Assembly: GCF_000012085.2 (NCBI RefSeq)
Contig: NC_008710.1
Location: 806,001-870,000, forward strand
Direction of reading: 5' to 3'
Source of the DNA: Borrelia turicatae 91E135
GTDB taxonomy: Bacteria; Spirochaetota; Spirochaetia; Borreliales; Borreliaceae
DNA: 64,000 bases
The translations under genes and the position numbers were made by a program. Every line of letters starts with the position of its first letter. Position 1 is the first letter of the stretch. Under the pieces are notes generated by a model, which ran no database searches, was not told the origin of the DNA, and saw only the letters and a program-made list of their open reading frames with translations. Shown here piece after piece: positions 6,279-45,770 of the stretch.

Positions 6279-7649
6279 TTAATTGTGCTTTATTGAATCT
6301 ATATCATACTCTGTTATTTTATTGTGTAAGGTTTTTCTTCCTATTTTAAGTATTTCGGCACATTTGCTTTTATTATTCTTAGAGTGTAAAAGTGTTTGTT
6401 TAATGATTTCTTTTTCTGCTTCTTTTAAGCTTATACCTATTGGTAGTATAATTTTAACTATTTGGTTTGTGTTATTTCTAATTTTGGGAGGTAAATCATC
6501 TTTTACAATTTGCTTTTCTTTAGATAATATTAAGGCGCTCTCTAGTACATTTTTGAGTTCTCTAATATTTCCTGGCCAATCATATGCATAAAGGGCTTTT
6601 AGCGCATCATTGGAGAGACTTTTCTCTTCTCTATTATTTTCACTTGCAACATCTTTAATTAGTATTTTTGTTAACTTTGGTATGTCGTCTTTTCTCTCTC
6701 TTAAGGGAGGAATATTGATATTTATTATGTTAAGCCTATAAAACAAGTCTTCTCTAAACCTTCCTTTTTTAATTTCTTCTTCAATATTTTTGTTTGTTGC
6801 TGTTAATAATCTAATATCAACTTGCATAGTAGTTTCTCCACCTACTCGTTCGAATGTTCTATTTTGAAGCACTCTTAGTAGTTTTACTTGAACTTCAGGT
6901 GATGTTTCTACTATTTCGTCTAAAAATATCGTTCCTTTATCTGCTAATTCGAATCTGCCTTTTTTTTGAGATATTGCACCTGTGAATGCTCCTTTTTCAT
7001 GTCCAAAGAGTTCACTCTCAAGTGTGCTCTCAGAGAGTGCAGCGCAATTGACTTTGATGAAGGGTTTGTCATTTCTATTTGATAAGTCAAATATGGCATC
7101 TGCTATTACTTCTTTTCCAACTCCACTCTCTCCAGTTATTAAGACAGATGCTTTTGATTTTGCGATTTTTTTTACAAGTTCTAGAGTTTTTTGCATTATA
7201 AGTGATTTTCCAAATATACGTTCATAATAATTTAAATCTTTTCGAATTATGACATTATCTTGGGATATGTTTTCATGCCTTTTGTCATTTTTACCATTTA
7301 AGGCTCGCTTTATTATGAGTAACAGTCTTTCAAGATCAACAGGTTTTGTTAAAAAATCATAAGCACCTTCTCGCATAGCATCGACTGCTGAATCGACAGT
7401 TCCATGAGCTGTAAGAATAATGAAGGGAATATTTGGGTTTTTATCTTTTACTATTTTAAGTAGTTCTTCTCCTGATATTTGGGGCATTCTAAGATCAGAT
7501 ATTATAGCATCGATCTTTTCATTTTTAATTGTTTCAAGTGCTTCTTTTCCATCACTAGCAGTAAATACAAAATAACCTTCCTCTTCTAGATAAGTTGCTA
7601 TTCCTTCTCGTATATTTTTTTCATCATCTGCTACCAGTAGTTTACTCAT
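6279..7649 (-). CDS. rrp2: Sigma-54-dependent response regulator Rrp2 (NtrC family)
   Basis: A 456-residue enhancer-binding protein with three domains. The receiver (1-115) has phospho-acceptor Asp52 in ISDLRMP, Thr80 and Lys102. The AAA+ sigma-54 interaction domain (about 145-370) has Walker A GESGVGKE (173-180), the GAFTGA loop (220-225) that contacts sigma-54, and Walker B IFLDE (241-245). A Fis-type helix-turn-helix is at 420-450. In Borrelia Rrp2 activates RpoN-dependent transcription of rpoS, and the matching promoter is in this window (15208-15225). The stretch after Walker B reads DEIVETS where most relatives have DEIGE. The start overlaps the hk2 stop by 8 bases, so kinase and regulator are translationally coupled. 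Confidence 0.96.
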   Translation of the reverse strand: MSKLLVADDEKNIREGIATYLEEEGYFVFTASDGKEALETIKNEKIDAIISDLRMPQISGEELLKIVKDKNPNIPFIILTAHGTVDSAVDAMREGAYDFLTKPVDLERLLLIIKRALNGKNDKRHENISQDNVIIRKDLNYYERIFGKSLIMQKTLELVKKIAKSKASVLITGESGVGKEVIADAIFDLSNRNDKPFIKVNCAALSESTLESELFGHEKGAFTGAISQKKGRFELADKGTIFLDEIVETSPEVQVKLLRVLQNRTFERVGGETTMQVDIRLLTATNKNIEEEIKKGRFREDLFYRLNIININIPPLRERKDDIPKLTKILIKDVASENNREEKSLSNDALKALYAYDWPGNIRELKNVLESALILSKEKQIVKDDLPPKIRNNTNQIVKIILPIGISLKEAEKEIIKQTLLHSKNNKSKCAEILKIGRKTLHNKITEYDIDSIKHN

Positions 7650-8802
7650 TCTCTAAACATCCTTCAATTAGAATTTTGCCTGTATTTAATTTTGGAAGTG
7701 TAATTGTAAAAGATGTTCCCTTTGTCTCTTTACTTTCCACAAAAATTTCACCCCCATGTTCTTTAATTATTTTATAAGAAATAGTTAGTCCTATGCCACT
7801 TCCACTTTCTTTTGTGCTAAATTGAGGTTTGAATATATCATCTTTTGTTTCATTTTTTATTCCATGTCCATTATCTTTAATACCAATGTATATTTTTTCT
7901 GTATTTTCGTGAATAGAAATTTCTATTTTTTTTGTCTTTTTATTTGATTCAAGTAGTGCTTCTTCTGCATTTTTTACTATATTGATTATTACTTGCCGTA
8001 TGAGTTTTTCGTCAATTAATGCAGGGCTTACTTTTTTTAGATTGAGTAGGAATTTAATATCTTTATTGTTTAATTCTGGATTTAATAGGTTATAGACACT
8101 TTTTATAACGTCAGTAATATTTCTTTTTTCTGGTACTATTTTTATTGGTCTCACTGTTAATAAAAAATCTGTTACAGTTTTATCCATTCTATTTATTTCT
8201 TCTTTTATTATTTTGAAGTAATTATTTGCTTTTGTGCTTTTGATACTTTGTCTATCTATTTCTTTTTTGAGTAGTTGTAAGTTTATGTCAATTGCTCCTA
8301 GCGGATTTTTAATCTCATGAGCAATATTTCTTGCATGTCTTGTAAAAGCAGCTAAAGCCTCAGCTCTTCTAAAAAGTTCTTCTTTATGTTTTTTATCTTT
8401 AATATCTTCAATTAAAATAATATTTCCTTCAAGCTTTTGATCTCTGACGTATGGCATAAATGATATTTTAATGTATATGTTTGTTGAAATTTGTACCTCA
8501 AATCCTATTATTTTATCTTCGTTTGTTACTAGTTCTTCTATTAAGTTTGTTAGAGTTGGAATTTGAATATCTTTAAGGGTTTCTAGTTTGTATTTAGGAC
8601 TTATAACTAAAATTTGAAATAGCATTTTGTTTAGGTAAATTATGTTATTAAGTTTATCAAGAACTAGGATCCCTTCATTAATGGATGCAAAAATGCCATC
8701 GTATATTTCTATTTTTTTATAGATATCTTGAATAAATTTAAGTTTTTGATCACTTGATAATTTATTTAATTTGGTCAAGGTTTTCTTTAAAAATTTGCTC
8801 AT
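7642..8802 (-). CDS. hk2: Sensor histidine kinase Hk2 (partner of Rrp2)
   Basis: A 386-residue kinase without membrane segments, so it senses in the cytoplasm. A PAS-like domain covers about residues 30-140. The phospho-acceptor is His162 in the block RNIAHEIKNPLGA, followed by the ATPase domain with N box (IVKNAEEAL), G1 box (IKDNGHGIKN) and G2 box (GSGIGLTIS). It is immediately upstream of rrp2 with an 8-base overlap, and its own start shares one base with the stop of the clamp-loader gene (TAATG). The pair is known to act on the RpoN-RpoS pathway in Borrelia, though acetyl-phosphate can also phosphorylate Rrp2 (literature knowledge, not visible here). Confidence 0.95.
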   Translation of the reverse strand: MSKFLKKTLTKLNKLSSDQKLKFIQDIYKKIEIYDGIFASINEGILVLDKLNNIIYLNKMLFQILVISPKYKLETLKDIQIPTLTNLIEELVTNEDKIIGFEVQISTNIYIKISFMPYVRDQKLEGNIILIEDIKDKKHKEELFRRAEALAAFTRHARNIAHEIKNPLGAIDINLQLLKKEIDRQSIKSTKANNYFKIIKEEINRMDKTVTDFLLTVRPIKIVPEKRNITDVIKSVYNLLNPELNNKDIKFLLNLKKVSPALIDEKLIRQVIINIVKNAEEALLESNKKTKKIEISIHENTEKIYIGIKDNGHGIKNETKDDIFKPQFSTKESGSGIGLTISYKIIKEHGGEIFVESKETKGTSFTITLPKLNTGKILIEGCLENE

Positions 8803-39580: not shown

Positions 39581-42028
39581 GTGAAGTTATTTAGAATCTT
39601 TTTGTTCTTTTTTGTATTTAATTTAGTGTATTCTCAAGAGAACTATAAGGGTAAGGTGATAAAAAGTATTGATTTTAATGGGCTTAAGAATATAAGAGAA
39701 AATGACTTTGGCTCTATTTTAAATGTTTATTTGGGACAAGCTTATTCTGATGAACTTTTTGATAGATTGCAAGTTGACCTTTATGCTCTTGATTATTTTG
39801 AGGGACTTATTAGACCTGAGTTTAGAGTAGAAAATGATAAACTTGTAATTACATTTTTTGTGAAGGAAAAATCCTTAATACAGACTGTTACTTTTATTGA
39901 TGATAGTGGAGTTTTTTGGAATAGTGAACTGCGTGATAAATCAAATGTTAATGCAAAAGAGGCTTTAAATCTTGCAAAAATTAAAAAAAGTGTTCTTAAA
40001 TTTGAAGAAATGTACAAAGATGCTGGATATCTTGATGTTACTGTTGAATTTGATATTAAAGAGAAAAATAGTTTAGTAGATATTGTGTTTAAAATTAATG
40101 CTGGTCCTAAGTATGTTGTTAAAGAGGTTTCTTTTGAGGGAAATTTGAACTTTAAGAGTCGTATTCTTAGAAAATATTTAGTATCAAAACCCGCATCTTT
40201 ATTTTTTGATGGTAAGTATTTAAAATCAAATGTTGATAAAGATAAAGTGAAACTTGAGTCTTATTATAAGAATAATGGATATATTAATGCAAAAGTTGTA
40301 GATAGCATTGTAGATATACGAATTCCCAGTGATGCTAAAAAATTGGAAAGAGAAGTTTTCTTAAAATATTTTATTTCAGAGGGTAATGTTTTTAAATTTG
40401 GTAAATTTGAAATTACTGGTAATTTAGTTTTTAAATTAGAAGAATTGCAATCCTTGATTACTTTTAAGGAAGGAGATATTTTTGATGATTCAAGATTTGA
40501 GCAAGATTTTGCAAAAATTAGGGAAAAGTATTATTCCGATGGTTATATCTTTACAGAGATTGTGCCTTCTCGGACGATAAGAGATGAATTTGTCGATTAT
40601 TCTATTAAGATATTAGAAAAAGAGAAAGCACATATTGAATCTATTACTGTTTCAGGTAATAAAAAAACAGCTTCTCATGTAATTCTTAGAGAAATTCCGC
40701 TAATTGAGGGTGATATTTTTAGTTTGGAAAATCTTCGGATGGGAATGCTTAATTTACAAAGACTTGGCTATTTTGGAAATGTTGTACCCGATGTTGTTCC
40801 AAGTGATATTGAGGGTTTAATGAAGATAAATTTTGTTGTTGAAGAGCGAGAGACAGCAAGTTTTAGATTTGGTATGAATTTTGGTGCGGTGAGTAATTCT
40901 TGGCTTCCATTTTCAGTTTTTGGACAGTGGGAGCAATCTAATTTTTTAGGTGAAGGGTATTCTCTTTCCGCAAGGCTTAATCTTGCTTTTTCAGAGCAAA
41001 GTTTTAGGTTAATGTTTGAAGATAATTGGTTTATGCAGACTAGATGGACTATTGGAGGATTTTTTGATTTTTCACATTCTATAAATACAGCGTATCAGGA
41101 TATTAATGGACCTATATTTACGGATAAGAAAGAAGTTCCAGATCCTTTTGTAAGTTGGGAAGCATATAATAATTCTAAAAATTTTTCGGATTTTAATGTT
41201 ATGAATTATTCTTTAGCGAAATTTAGTATTAGTGGGTTTACTGGTTATACTTTTTCTAATTATCTTGGAAAGCAATCAGTTGTTGGAACTGCACAAACTG
41301 CCTTGAAATATGTGTATTATGATGATAATGTTAACAGACCTTCAAATTATTATTTGAGGGATAATTATAATACTATTAGATTTGAAAATTCTTTTGGTAT
41401 TAGCGTTGCATGGGATACAAGAAATTCTCAGTCTTTATCTAATAATGGTTTTTTGCTTAAGCAGCAATTTGATCTTTTTGGTGGATTTTTGTTTGGACAG
41501 AGTCATTTTTCAAAATCCACAACAACTTTTGAGAGATATTTCTCTCTTTTAGGCTATCAGGATGTTTTCACCCCATTTTTTGATTTAATTTTAACTTTGC
41601 GGAGTGTTTATTCAAATATTTTACCACCACTTGGGAATGGTTTTGAGATAGAAGTTCAACCACATCACCTTATAGTTATTAGTGAAAACTTTATGATTGC
41701 AAGAGGATGGGGCACTTTGAGTAATATTTATAGTTCGTTTGTAAATACTCTTCAGTTATCAATGCCTTTGATTAAGAATATTTTGGTTTGGGATGTTTTG
41801 TTTTTAGATATGGCTTCATATTCTCTAGAAGGTCAAGAAAATTCTTTGTTTGTTCCTTTGAGTAATTTTATTTTTAGTTGGGGTTTTGGAATTAGAAGTG
41901 TATTACCTCAAATGCCTTTGTCTTTTGTAATAGCTTATCCATTTCATTTTAATAATGAAGGTGTTAATAGATATTATAATTATTTTGGAGGATTTAAATT
42001 TTTCTTAGCCATTGATATGAGATACTGA
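39581..42028 (+). CDS. bamA: Outer membrane protein assembly factor BamA
   Basis: An 815-residue Omp85 protein: signal peptide (to about residue 20), POTRA repeats (about 24-425; for example KSIDFNGLKNIRENDF, and VSGNKKTASHVILREIPLIEGD in parts), and a C-terminal 16-strand barrel with the IARGWGTLSNI element in place of the usual VRGF of loop 6, ending in a aromatic-rich FFLAIDMRY. The start is GTG with GAGGG 7 bases upstream. It folds and inserts outer membrane proteins and forms an operon with tamB and skp. Confidence 0.96.
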   Translation: MKLFRIFLFFFVFNLVYSQENYKGKVIKSIDFNGLKNIRENDFGSILNVYLGQAYSDELFDRLQVDLYALDYFEGLIRPEFRVENDKLVITFFVKEKSLIQTVTFIDDSGVFWNSELRDKSNVNAKEALNLAKIKKSVLKFEEMYKDAGYLDVTVEFDIKEKNSLVDIVFKINAGPKYVVKEVSFEGNLNFKSRILRKYLVSKPASLFFDGKYLKSNVDKDKVKLESYYKNNGYINAKVVDSIVDIRIPSDAKKLEREVFLKYFISEGNVFKFGKFEITGNLVFKLEELQSLITFKEGDIFDDSRFEQDFAKIREKYYSDGYIFTEIVPSRTIRDEFVDYSIKILEKEKAHIESITVSGNKKTASHVILREIPLIEGDIFSLENLRMGMLNLQRLGYFGNVVPDVVPSDIEGLMKINFVVEERETASFRFGMNFGAVSNSWLPFSVFGQWEQSNFLGEGYSLSARLNLAFSEQSFRLMFEDNWFMQTRWTIGGFFDFSHSINTAYQDINGPIFTDKKEVPDPFVSWEAYNNSKNFSDFNVMNYSLAKFSISGFTGYTFSNYLGKQSVVGTAQTALKYVYYDDNVNRPSNYYLRDNYNTIRFENSFGISVAWDTRNSQSLSNNGFLLKQQFDLFGGFLFGQSHFSKSTTTFERYFSLLGYQDVFTPFFDLILTLRSVYSNILPPLGNGFEIEVQPHHLIVISENFMIARGWGTLSNIYSSFVNTLQLSMPLIKNILVWDVLFLDMASYSLEGQENSLFVPLSNFIFSWGFGIRSVLPQMPLSFVIAYPFHFNNEGVNRYYNYFGGFKFFLAIDMRY

Positions 42029-42063: not shown

Positions 42064-42582
42064 ATGGCTTTTATAGTGTTTTTGTTTGCATGTTTTTTTC
42101 CATTAAATCTTTTTTCAGTTAATGTTACAAAAGTGGGTATTGTAGATTTTGAGAAGGTTGTAATTGAGTTTTTAAGTCCGCAATTAAAGTCTAATCTTGA
42201 GCAATTGAAAAATCATTATCAAGAAAAAATAGATATCTTGAATTCTGAGATTAAAGATTTGAGGAAAATATATGATGAATCTGTTAGTGTTCATGATTTA
42301 GAGAGTGCTAAATTGTATGGTAATCAATATAACTTGAAGATTGATGAACTTAAGAAGCTTAAGAGCTTGGCTAAGAGTAATCTTGAGCAACAGAAACAGA
42401 TTAATATAAACAGTTTAAATAGTGATGGATTACTTTGGGGCAAAATACTTAATGGTATTCAATATATTGCAGAGACTAATGGTATTTCTTTGGTTATGAA
42501 AAAAGATAATCCATATATTCTTTATTATAATAGTACAGTTGATATAACAGATGATATTATTAAGTATTTGAGTGAACAGTAG
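42064..42582 (+). CDS. skp: Skp/OmpH-like periplasmic chaperone
   Basis: A 172-residue protein with a signal peptide (MAFIVFLFACFFPLNLFS) and the OmpH start KVGIVDFEKVV, followed by a long Lys/Glu/Leu-rich helical hairpin (about 45-125) as in the tentacles of Skp. It would hold unfolded outer membrane proteins before BamA. GGGAGG precedes the ATG. Position after bamA is conserved in many bacteria. Confidence 0.88.
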   Translation: MAFIVFLFACFFPLNLFSVNVTKVGIVDFEKVVIEFLSPQLKSNLEQLKNHYQEKIDILNSEIKDLRKIYDESVSVHDLESAKLYGNQYNLKIDELKKLKSLAKSNLEQQKQININSLNSDGLLWGKILNGIQYIAETNGISLVMKKDNPYILYYNSTVDITDDIIKYLSEQ

Positions 42583-42602: not shown

Positions 42603-43112
42603 TTAATTGTTGTTTTCTTTTTTTAGTCTTCTAATTAGGGTGCAGAATTCTTTTTTGTTGTCTTTATTGAGGCTTGAGAGTAAAATATGTGATTTTAACA
42701 TTGATTTAAATATTGTATTTTTATGTGCACTGAAACAAAAATACTCTTTCATGTCACTTTTTTGTAATTTTTCTTCTCTATTTTCTATTTTTAATATTTT
42801 TTCAAGACCAAGAGATTGTAAATTTTTAAGTGCTTCTTTGCTAGAGTTTATTATTTTAAAGGTTTTTTTGTGTTCATTGCTCTTATTATCAATGTATATT
42901 AGTACTCCCATAAAAGTTGAATCTAAATATTTTGTTTCCGATAAATCTATGTATAATTTGTTGATTTTATCGTTATTATTTATGAATATATTTTTGATAA
43001 ATGTTTTAAAATTGACAGAATATAATGCAGTAAGTCTGTTAATTAATTTTATGAAAACAAAATCGTCTTTACATACATAAAAGACATTGCTTTGAGAAGT
43101 ATCTTTTTCCAT
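42603..43112 (-). CDS. STAS-domain protein (anti-sigma factor antagonist-like)
   Basis: A 169-residue cytosolic protein. Residues about 48-105 form a STAS domain, with KLYIDLSETKYLDSTFMGVLIYI carrying the DS(S/T) site that is phosphorylated in SpoIIAA relatives (Ser/Thr near residues 65-66; quoted block is split here as LYIDLSETKYLDS and TFMGVL). A charged helical C-terminal region of about 60 residues follows. No kinase or phosphatase partner is adjacent. It converges with skp (20-base gap) and diverges from mutS with interleaved promoters. Confidence 0.8.
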   Translation of the reverse strand: MEKDTSQSNVFYVCKDDFVFIKLINRLTALYSVNFKTFIKNIFINNNDKINKLYIDLSETKYLDSTFMGVLIYIDNKSNEHKKTFKIINSSKEALKNLQSLGLEKILKIENREEKLQKSDMKEYFCFSAHKNTIFKSMLKSHILLSSLNKDNKKEFCTLIRRLKKENNN

Positions 43113-43136: not shown

Positions 43137-43165
43137 AGTATATTGTAAAGTTTTAATAATATCAA
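43137..43165 (-). promoter_or_regulatory. Promoter of the STAS gene
   Basis: On the minus strand TTGATA (43160-43165), 17-bp spacer, TATACT (43137-43142); start near 43130, leader about 18 bases. Confidence 0.75.
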
Positions 43166-43172
43166 TTATAAT
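43143..43172 (+). promoter_or_regulatory. Promoter of mutS
   Basis: TTGTAA (43143-43148), 18-bp spacer, TATAAT (43167-43172); start near 43179, only about 9 bases before the mutS ATG. It interleaves with the divergent STAS promoter. Confidence 0.75.
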
Positions 43173-43187
43173 TTTAGTATTGCTTAT

Positions 43188-45770
43188 ATGAGAAAAGATG
43201 TTACGCCGATGATGAGGCAATATTTGAATATTAAAGATAAACATAAAGATGCTATTCTGTTTTTTAGAGTAGGTAGTTTTTATGAAATGTTTTTTGATGA
43301 TGCTCTTGAGGGAAGCAAGCTTTTAGGATTAACTTTGACTAAAAGAGAAAATGTTCCTATGTGTGGAGTGCCTTGTCATACAAGTAAAGATTATATAAAA
43401 AAATTGATTTTGCTTGATAAAAAGGTTGCAATTTGTGAGCAAGGATTGCAAACTGATCCTAAAGGGCCTTTAGAAAGAGAAGTTGTTGAAGTTATAAGTC
43501 CTGGAGTTGTTATCGATGAAGATTTTTTGCAAGATGATATTAATAATTATTTGATAGCTATTAGTGATTATAAGGATTATTATTCATTTTCTTATATAGA
43601 TTTGTCGACATCTAGACTTGGAATAATCCTTTATGAGGGAAATTTTTTAGAAAAGTTGAGACGGGATATTGAGAAGTATTCTCCAAAGGAAATAATAGTT
43701 TCAGAGGATTTTTATTATGAATATTTAGAAAAACTTGCTCTTGATCGATTTTTAGTTAATAAGATTCCCCATTGGCATTTTGACAAAGAGATTGCCATGA
43801 AATCACTAAAAGAGCATTTTAATGTTCTTAGTTTGAGTGCTCTTGGGTTTAAAGAGGATGAGCCTTATTATGTTTCATCTTTTTTAATAATAGATTATAT
43901 AAAGAATAACTTGAAAAATTTATTAATTAATATTGACACAATTCATATTAATAATGATTCTGAATATATGTTTCTTGATGATGTTACTCAAATAAACCTT
44001 GAACTTGTTAAAAACAATAATGATTTAACATCCTGCTATTCTCTTTATTCAGTATTAAATGATTGTAAAACTCCCATGGGGAAGAGACTTTTAAGAGAAT
44101 ATATATTAAATCCGCTTTTAGATATTGTTGCAATTAACAATAGATTAGATCATGTAGAATTTTTAAACAATAATATTAACTTAAGTATGAAATTGAGAGA
44201 TATTCTTAGTAATGTTTGGGATATTGAGAGAATAATCTCAAGACTTCAAATGAAAAAATATGTTAAAAAAGATTTTTTATTGATTAAGGAATCTTTGACA
44301 GCATTTTTTTTAGCAAAAAGGCTTCTTAATGAACATTCTTTTAGTTATTGGATATTTGATGTTAATGATGAAAATAATATAAGAGAAATTTATTCTTTAA
44401 TTGATTGTTCCATTTCAAAGGAGCCAGATGAGCTTATTCAACATGGGTATAATTTTGAGATTGATCGTTTAAGAGAGATTAAAAATAATGCAAGCAAGTA
44501 TGTTGATGATTATCTTAATTTTGAGAGGAATTTTAGCAAAATTAGTAGCCTTAAAATTAGGAGAATTAATGTTCGAGGTTTGTTTTTTGAGGTTACAAAG
44601 AGTTATTATGGACAAGTTCCATCTCATTTTATAGAAAGTCAGACTTTAAATTCTGTTAAGAGATATAAAACTAACAAACTTATTGAACTTGAAAGGGATA
44701 TTAATGATGCTGAGGATAATTTATTGGCTCTTGAGCAAGAAGTGTTTGATGACATAGCTTCAAAAATTGTTAAGCATAGTGTGGTTATTAAAAAAATTGC
44801 TAATTTTTTTGCGTATGTTGATGTAGTCTCTGATTTTGCGTATTTGGCTAAAAAAAATGAATATGTAAGACCCACTCTAACTAACAATAAAGAAATTATT
44901 CTTGAGTGTTCTAGACATCCTGTTGTTGAGCATTATATGAAGGGAGTTGAGGCTTTTACTAAAAATTCTGTAAAAATTGACAATGATAAGTATTTTTGTT
45001 TAATTACTGGTCCTAATATGGCAGGCAAATCAACTTATTTACGTCAGACTGCTTTAGTTGTTTTAATGGGACATATTGGTTCTTTTGTGCCTGCTAATCA
45101 GGCCATCATAGGAATTACAGATAAGATTTTTTGTCGAATCGGGGCAAGTGATAATATTTCCAAAGGTGAGTCTACATTTTTAGTAGAGATGAATGAAACG
45201 GCTAATATTTTAAGAAATGCAACTCAGAATAGCTTGATAATTATGGATGAAGTTGGGAGGGGTACTAGTACTAATGATGGACTTGCTATTGCGTATTCAA
45301 TTGTTGAATATATTTTAGAACATATTCAAGCTAGAAGTTTATTTGCAACTCATTTTCATGAGCTTTCAGCTATTAAGCATGATTCTTTTGTTAATCTTTC
45401 AATGAAAATTGAAAGACAAGGTGATGAACTTATTTTTTTAAGAGAGGTTGAAGAAAAACCTTCTCTTAATTCTTATGGGATTTATGTTGCTCGCATAGCA
45501 GGAATACCTTTAAAAGTTATTGAGAGGGCTAATGTTATTCTTAAAAGTTTGACTAGTCGAGAGCATTTGTATGTGCCGGAATTTTTTACTTCAGCCACTT
45601 TGGTTATTAATGATGGTGAAGAAGCAATGAAAGAAGATTTAAGTTATGAGTTAGAACTTAATGATTACTTAGAACTTAAAAATTTTATTTCTAAAATAGA
45701 TGTCAATAATATTACTCCTTTTCAAGCAATGAATTTACTAAGTGAAATAATTTTAAAGACTAAGACATAG
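43188..45770 (+). CDS. mutS: DNA mismatch repair protein MutS
   Basis: An 860-residue MutS. The mismatch-reading motif GSFYEMFFDD (Phe-x-Glu) is near residues 29-38; the ATPase domain has P-loop GPNMAGKSTYLRQTA, Walker B IIMDEVGRGTST and FATHFHEL. The start MRKDVTPMMRQYL aligns with family N-termini, so the ATG at 43188 is right even though no ribosome site precedes it. It is followed by comFC after 10 bases. Confidence 0.97.
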   Translation: MRKDVTPMMRQYLNIKDKHKDAILFFRVGSFYEMFFDDALEGSKLLGLTLTKRENVPMCGVPCHTSKDYIKKLILLDKKVAICEQGLQTDPKGPLEREVVEVISPGVVIDEDFLQDDINNYLIAISDYKDYYSFSYIDLSTSRLGIILYEGNFLEKLRRDIEKYSPKEIIVSEDFYYEYLEKLALDRFLVNKIPHWHFDKEIAMKSLKEHFNVLSLSALGFKEDEPYYVSSFLIIDYIKNNLKNLLINIDTIHINNDSEYMFLDDVTQINLELVKNNNDLTSCYSLYSVLNDCKTPMGKRLLREYILNPLLDIVAINNRLDHVEFLNNNINLSMKLRDILSNVWDIERIISRLQMKKYVKKDFLLIKESLTAFFLAKRLLNEHSFSYWIFDVNDENNIREIYSLIDCSISKEPDELIQHGYNFEIDRLREIKNNASKYVDDYLNFERNFSKISSLKIRRINVRGLFFEVTKSYYGQVPSHFIESQTLNSVKRYKTNKLIELERDINDAEDNLLALEQEVFDDIASKIVKHSVVIKKIANFFAYVDVVSDFAYLAKKNEYVRPTLTNNKEIILECSRHPVVEHYMKGVEAFTKNSVKIDNDKYFCLITGPNMAGKSTYLRQTALVVLMGHIGSFVPANQAIIGITDKIFCRIGASDNISKGESTFLVEMNETANILRNATQNSLIIMDEVGRGTSTNDGLAIAYSIVEYILEHIQARSLFATHFHELSAIKHDSFVNLSMKIERQGDELIFLREVEEKPSLNSYGIYVARIAGIPLKVIERANVILKSLTSREHLYVPEFFTSATLVINDGEEAMKEDLSYELELNDYLELKNFISKIDVNNITPFQAMNLLSEIILKTKT

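Follow-up and report, generated by a model that had tools for sequence, protein, structure and literature searches.

The nearest described analogue of the signalling module considered here is the SypE-SypA pair of Vibrio fischeri, in which SypE is an HPK-like kinase-REC-PP2C protein and SypA a STAS protein (PMC3610818, PMC8256260). Both systems bring together a receiver, a PP2C phosphatase and a STAS protein that consists of one domain and has a conserved serine. However, we detected no kinase domain in the Borrelia phosphatase, whose gene lies far from the STAS gene, and the Vibrio system includes no connection with mutS. The anti-sigma antagonists SpoIIAA and RsbV share with the Borrelia protein the STAS fold and the DST/DSS motif, but lack its C-terminal extension of about 55 residues. 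As for the RsbU/RsbV/RsbW partner switch, the PP2C/SpoIIE phosphatase is present in STAS-bearing Borrelia, but the search of 36 Borreliaceae for an RsbW-like anti-sigma kinase (HATPase_c_2) yielded nothing above the cut-off, which leaves the partner switch of classical type incomplete.

Leaderless genes offer a second comparison. They are characterized by an adjacent -10 box, TANNNT, with the start about 12 bp further on, and a survey put them at 3.9% of genes in those spirochaete genomes, 6 of 18, in which any occurred, with no mention of mutS (PMC3160421); in Leptospira, about 440 mRNAs have leaders shorter than 10 nt (PMC5243855). The locus described below resembles these cases in having a -10 box just before the start codon and no Shine-Dalgarno sequence. 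Whereas the published lists are genome-wide, here a single orthologous gene keeps the architecture over many families, together with a conserved -35. The third precedent is bacterial transcriptional interference, in which divergent promoters overlap and occlude each other: here too, two sigma70-type promoters, predicted in our case, lie on opposite strands within 36 bp. The difference is that, judging by their domains, neither the STAS protein nor MutS regulates the region by binding its DNA. The spirochaete literature that we searched contained no mapped transcript start for this locus, and mutS is not mentioned in the main text of a paper on B. burgdorferi RNA ends. Our search, which covered the open-access literature, found no earlier report of the STAS/mutS pair or of a leaderless mutS.

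The window, i.e., the whole stretch of 64,000 nucleotides of Borrelia turicatae 91E135 that was analysed, contains a STAS gene and mutS in divergent orientation (Table 1), with 75 bp from start codon to start codon. An in-frame stop occurs at 43146, and between this stop and the mutS ATG there is no alternative mutS start.

Table 1. Features of the STAS/mutS locus and its neighbourhood (window coordinates)
Feature	Position	Strand	Remarks
bamA-like gene	39581..42028	+	part of the conserved neighbourhood
ompH/skp-like gene	42064..42582	+	upstream neighbour of the STAS/mutS pair; PF03938, E 7.6e-15
STAS-domain gene	42603..43112	-	169 aa; PF01740, E 1.6e-7
STAS promoter -10, TATACT	43137..43142	-	abuts the mutS -35; kept in 15/16 STAS-bearing species
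STAS promoter -35, TTGATA	43160..43165	-	within the mutS promoter spacer; in 22/22 aligned Borreliaceae, STAS-less included
mutS promoter -35, TTGTAA	43143..43148	+	from sequence and scan; invariant in 18/18 same-genus genomes
mutS promoter -10, TATAAT	43167..43172	+	from sequence and scan; invariant in 18/18 same-genus genomes
Conserved block AAGTATATTGTAAAGTTTTAATAATATCAATTATAATT and core, with both promoters inside	43137..43174	.	near-invariant within the genus
Predicted 5' end of the mutS transcript (about 43179), with a 9-nt leader that has no Shine-Dalgarno	43179..43187	+	deduced from the -10
mutS (MutS1)	43188..45770	+	860 aa; ATG at 43188; MutS domains I-V

A preliminary description of this DNA had assigned a promoter to each of the two genes, and both hexamers of either promoter were indeed found at the positions it gave, those for STAS on the minus strand. 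Each promoter scores 10/12, with a spacer of 18 nt for mutS and 17 nt for STAS. The two share 36 bp, as had been claimed: the STAS -10 touches the mutS -35, and the STAS -35 falls between the two mutS hexamers; the overlap is confirmed as an observation at this very place, and promoter activity is predicted. Transcript starts were placed by the usual 7-nt rule from the -10, giving about 43130 for STAS, with a leader of 18 nt, and the mutS start listed in Table 1. No Shine-Dalgarno sequence precedes the mutS ATG. The earlier proposal of a mutS start some 9 bases before the ATG, without a ribosome site, was backed by the sequence as well as by the comparison across species, the start itself being a prediction.

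The STAS protein served as query against 347 Spirochaetia genomes, and we then read the neighbourhoods of the matches. STAS was directly divergent from mutS in 28/28 of the best non-Borrelia relatives whose contig reaches mutS. At least 12 other families are represented among these loci, where the order is usually bamA, ompH/skp, reversed STAS, mutS; the pair was kept even though the STAS proteins of other families are only 30-50% identical. In a tree, the mutS-adjacent STAS proteins, those of Borrelia included, fell on one side of a moderately supported branch (86/69) and STAS proteins from elsewhere on the other. On this distribution, the head-to-head arrangement is an ancient feature of Spirochaetia and not specific to Borrelia. 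Outside Borrelia the start-to-start distance was about 26-137 bp, except in one family (f29), where it was 245-424 bp, so overlap is not universal. The loci of that family (L140, L146, L151 and L153) also contain a small divergent ORF with a strong Shine-Dalgarno sequence, which apparently starts beside mutS, between mutS and STAS.

The comparison was also informative about the mutS start. A TATAAT-like box stood 5-10 nt before the mutS start codon in 26 of the 28 STAS-adjacent loci outside Borrelia, the gap being exactly 9 nt in 18 loci and exactly 6 nt in 6. The same placement was seen in 6/30 spirochaete mutS loci without STAS and in 0/80 mutS loci from other phyla, the latter collected by a contig scan with MutS; the contrast between STAS-adjacent and STAS-less spirochaete loci gave a Fisher value of 1e-8, uncorrected for relatedness. 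A Shine-Dalgarno-like sequence preceded mutS in 1/28 STAS-adjacent loci, versus 64/80 in the other phyla. For background, a comparable box without Shine-Dalgarno was found at 7-10% of genes genome-wide, as estimated by sampling three genomes (20 x 20 kb). The 26 loci had been selected by their -10 box, the -35 playing no part in the selection, and they nevertheless had an independent -35, TTGTA, exactly 17 nt upstream (T 26/26, T 22/26, G 19/26 and T 18/26 at fixed spacing). Given a -10 at 6-9 nt and an independent -35 at 17 nt, the mutS mRNA is predicted to be ancestrally leaderless. The 16 STAS-bearing Borrelia species, with a gap of 15 or 13 nt between -10 and ATG, are only near-leaderless; the leaderless state looks ancestral, and the 7-9 nt leader of Borrelia would then be derived.

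The presence of STAS itself, considered as the cause of the leaderless arrangement, was weakened as a candidate by STAS-less genomes with room upstream of mutS, which are also leaderless. In STAS-less genomes, a leaderless-type mutS promoter was found where ompH lies at least 63 nt upstream or far off, and none where the end of ompH is no more than about 50 nt away from mutS. The pattern would thus arise because mutS has its own promoter, and not because of STAS.

Within the genus, the AAGTATATTGTAAAGTTTTAATAATATCAATTATAATT block was nearly constant over 18 species, with variable flanks on both sides. The mutS -35, the mutS -10 and the STAS -35 were invariant in 16/16 STAS-bearing Borrelia; the STAS -10 read TATACT in 15 of these and TACACT in the remaining one, and it was changed in 6/6 aligned STAS-less species. 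This element-by-element conservation is the decisive support for both predicted Borrelia promoters.

According to the mutS tree, STAS was lost twice independently within Borreliaceae, with mutS kept. The Lyme group shows a mutS -10 gap of 21 nt and AGGAA(G) before the ATG, the original -10 having often decayed; the mutS promoter of this group seems to have been rebuilt following STAS loss. In the STAS-less relapsing-fever branch (G005 and G006), the gaps were 42 and 32 nt. Judged by these predicted promoters, both STAS-less branches are further removed from leaderlessness than the STAS-bearing Borrelia.

Some further details were seen in these mutS regions. Many Lyme-group species (L302-L315) have a degraded ancestral mutS -10 and an invariant TATAAT about 12 nt further upstream. 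One Lyme-group genome (L319, G030:C1:838920-839216) has a TAG in the N-terminal part of mutS, leaving an open frame of 124 aa, which reflects either decay or a sequencing error. In G009, which is presumably B. recurrentis, the mutS1 frame is intact (G009:C1:863321-865891, 870 aa) and a second MutS-like frame, at about 107 kb (G009:C1:107183-108289), is short, with 698 aa versus 783-789 in relatives. Consequently, the frameshifted 'mutS' reported for B. recurrentis (BRE_100; PMC2525819) is probably mutS2.

Could the arrangement simply reflect compact packing? STAS may sit, with no crosstalk, inside a rarely rearranged bamA-skp-mutS block, the two promoters being real but weak and their co-occupancy too rare to matter. 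The order bamA-skp-mutS is in fact retained in genomes without STAS too, divergent genes are often separated by short spacers here (14/39 pairs sampled in this genome have a gap of 100 bp or less), and mutS was kept through both STAS losses in Borreliaceae. However, the STAS -10 decays with the loss of STAS, whereas species that still have STAS retain the interleaved geometry, and the head-to-head pair has lasted in the 12 or more other families despite the divergence of the STAS proteins. We regard packing without crosstalk as a tentative alternative, of appreciable though not leading probability.

The core ATAATATCAATT (43155-43166) raises a different issue. It is identical in 22/22 aligned species, and it is unaltered in the six STAS-less loci L115, L120 and L123-L126, with the entire STAS -35 included. 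Because the core persists with the STAS -35 in the absence of STAS, part of its conservation is not due to STAS and, as far as the alignment tells, it has some role beyond STAS transcription. It could be mainly an operator or structural element of the mutS promoter for some regulator, the match to a STAS -35 being secondary, and in the Lyme group it does form a near-palindrome, TTATAAT-ATCA-ATTATAA. Yet the second half of this palindrome is degraded in many species of the group (TTGTAA, TTATTA, TTAAAA), and we consider an operator unlikely to be the main explanation.

We attach very little weight to the idea that the hexamers are chance promoter-like matches in 29% GC DNA, with the true transcript starts elsewhere. 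Promoter-like sites were no commoner than expected in the region (24 observed in 4.5 kb, against 29 in shuffles), so the scan by itself is no proof. However, a pair of 10/12 promoters that overlap on opposite strands appeared in only 0.25% of shuffles of the 75-bp spacer (P = 0.0025); such pairs were found in 1/8 sampled divergent pairs of the same genome with spacers of 60-100 bp. Chance would also leave unexplained the element-specific conservation, as well as the recurrence of this -35/-10/start-codon geometry in relatives whose higher GC content makes chance matches less frequent. Translation of MutS from a downstream ATG (43209 or 43212), which would give a leader of about 30 nt and an mRNA that is not near-leaderless, is hardly credible: most species do have the ATGATG at 43209-43214, but conserved residues before TPMM would be lost, the upstream ATG and first codons align across 22 Borreliaceae, and in other families this motif likewise comes after a start codon that is 6-9 nt from the -10.

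The STAS protein is SpoIIAA-like, with a profile match to the solved anti-sigma antagonists TM1442 and SpoIIAA. D63, S64 and T65, forming a D-S/T loop with a serine predicted to be phosphorylatable, were invariant in ten aligned sequences, and the C-terminal extension has invariant residues of its own (L, H, L, N, F). The receiver-PP2C phosphatase is encoded next to nadE (L203:3315-4898; 527 aa). Its PF07228 match is strong (E 1.2e-32), and the receiver-like middle domain is weak, below the Pfam cut-off (E 3.2e-5). The N-terminal segment of 150 residues had no Pfam match.

Among 36 Borreliaceae, STAS and the phosphatase co-occurred perfectly, 16 having both and 20 neither, a co-loss that rests on two events. 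In other spirochaetes, distant STAS relatives that are not beside mutS lay directly behind a SpoIIE phosphatase gene in 19 or 20 of the 24 loci examined. Taken together, the co-occurrence and the adjacency in relatives make it likely that phosphatase and STAS are a biochemical pair, and the association of STAS with a receiver-PP2C phosphatase points to a partner-switch-type module. As for the missing partner, weak HATPase matches were rejected as candidates, since they turn up whether or not a genome has STAS; one in the window, on checking, proved to be inside a histidine kinase ORF. The second STAS of the genome, a separate 110-aa protein, was also rejected. On the minus strand of the window, at 6279-8802, genes for an NtrC-like response regulator (456 aa) and a histidine kinase (386 aa) overlap by 8 bp; presumably, these are the Rrp2/Hk2 pair of Borrelia.

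The explanation that we favour, with moderate confidence, is that of an ancient bidirectional STAS/mutS promoter region of Spirochaetia, with a leaderless or near-leaderless mutS, an interleaving of the promoters in Borrelia, and a STAS/phosphatase module. In this scheme mutS would be read from a sigma70-type promoter (TTGTA, 17-18 nt, TATAAT) very near its start codon, and the mRNA, leaderless or with a leader of 7-9 nt in Borrelia, would be translated without a Shine-Dalgarno sequence. Since the STAS promoter of Borrelia is interleaved with that of mutS, a polymerase on one should exclude the other, a behaviour that we infer from the geometry of two promoters within 36 bp; the two transcripts would thereby be inversely coupled, at low, constitutive levels. 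The STAS protein would probably be dephosphorylated by the receiver-PP2C phosphatase encoded elsewhere, as suggested by the co-loss in Borreliaceae and the adjacency in relatives. Any effect of the module on mismatch repair would have to pass through promoter competition or through some further partner.

The preliminary description had gone on to suggest that a signalling protein could oppose the expression of mismatch repair. The comparison upheld the interleaved promoters and the near-leaderless mutS on which this interpretation was built, but promoter competition would reside in the DNA and not in the STAS protein, and hence the signalling step is only an idea. That STAS or the phosphatase alters mismatch repair is speculative. 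A bolder version would be an ancient and dedicated coupling of the receiver-PP2C/STAS module to mismatch repair, in which the transcription of STAS and that of a leaderless mutS are mutually exclusive owing to the shared promoter region, a stress signal thereby shifts the mutation or recombination rate, and the mutS leader was re-engineered wherever the module was lost, in the Lyme group and in one relapsing-fever branch; we deem this improbable.

Irrespective of such coupling, the head-to-head STAS/mutS arrangement, extending over the class with a predicted leaderless mutS, is more interesting than the claim from which the analysis started. The retention of leaderless mutS over many families provides one orthologous gene in which the evolution of leaderless initiation may be studied, and the Borreliaceae offer two apparent exits from this state, coinciding with STAS loss. 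MutS1 protects Borrelia against oxidative damage (PMC5013056), which is why the pair matters in this genus. Mismatch repair is usually seen as housekeeping, and the STAS/mutS pair is a specific locus at which one can examine whether repair in spirochaetes is adjusted in response to signals.
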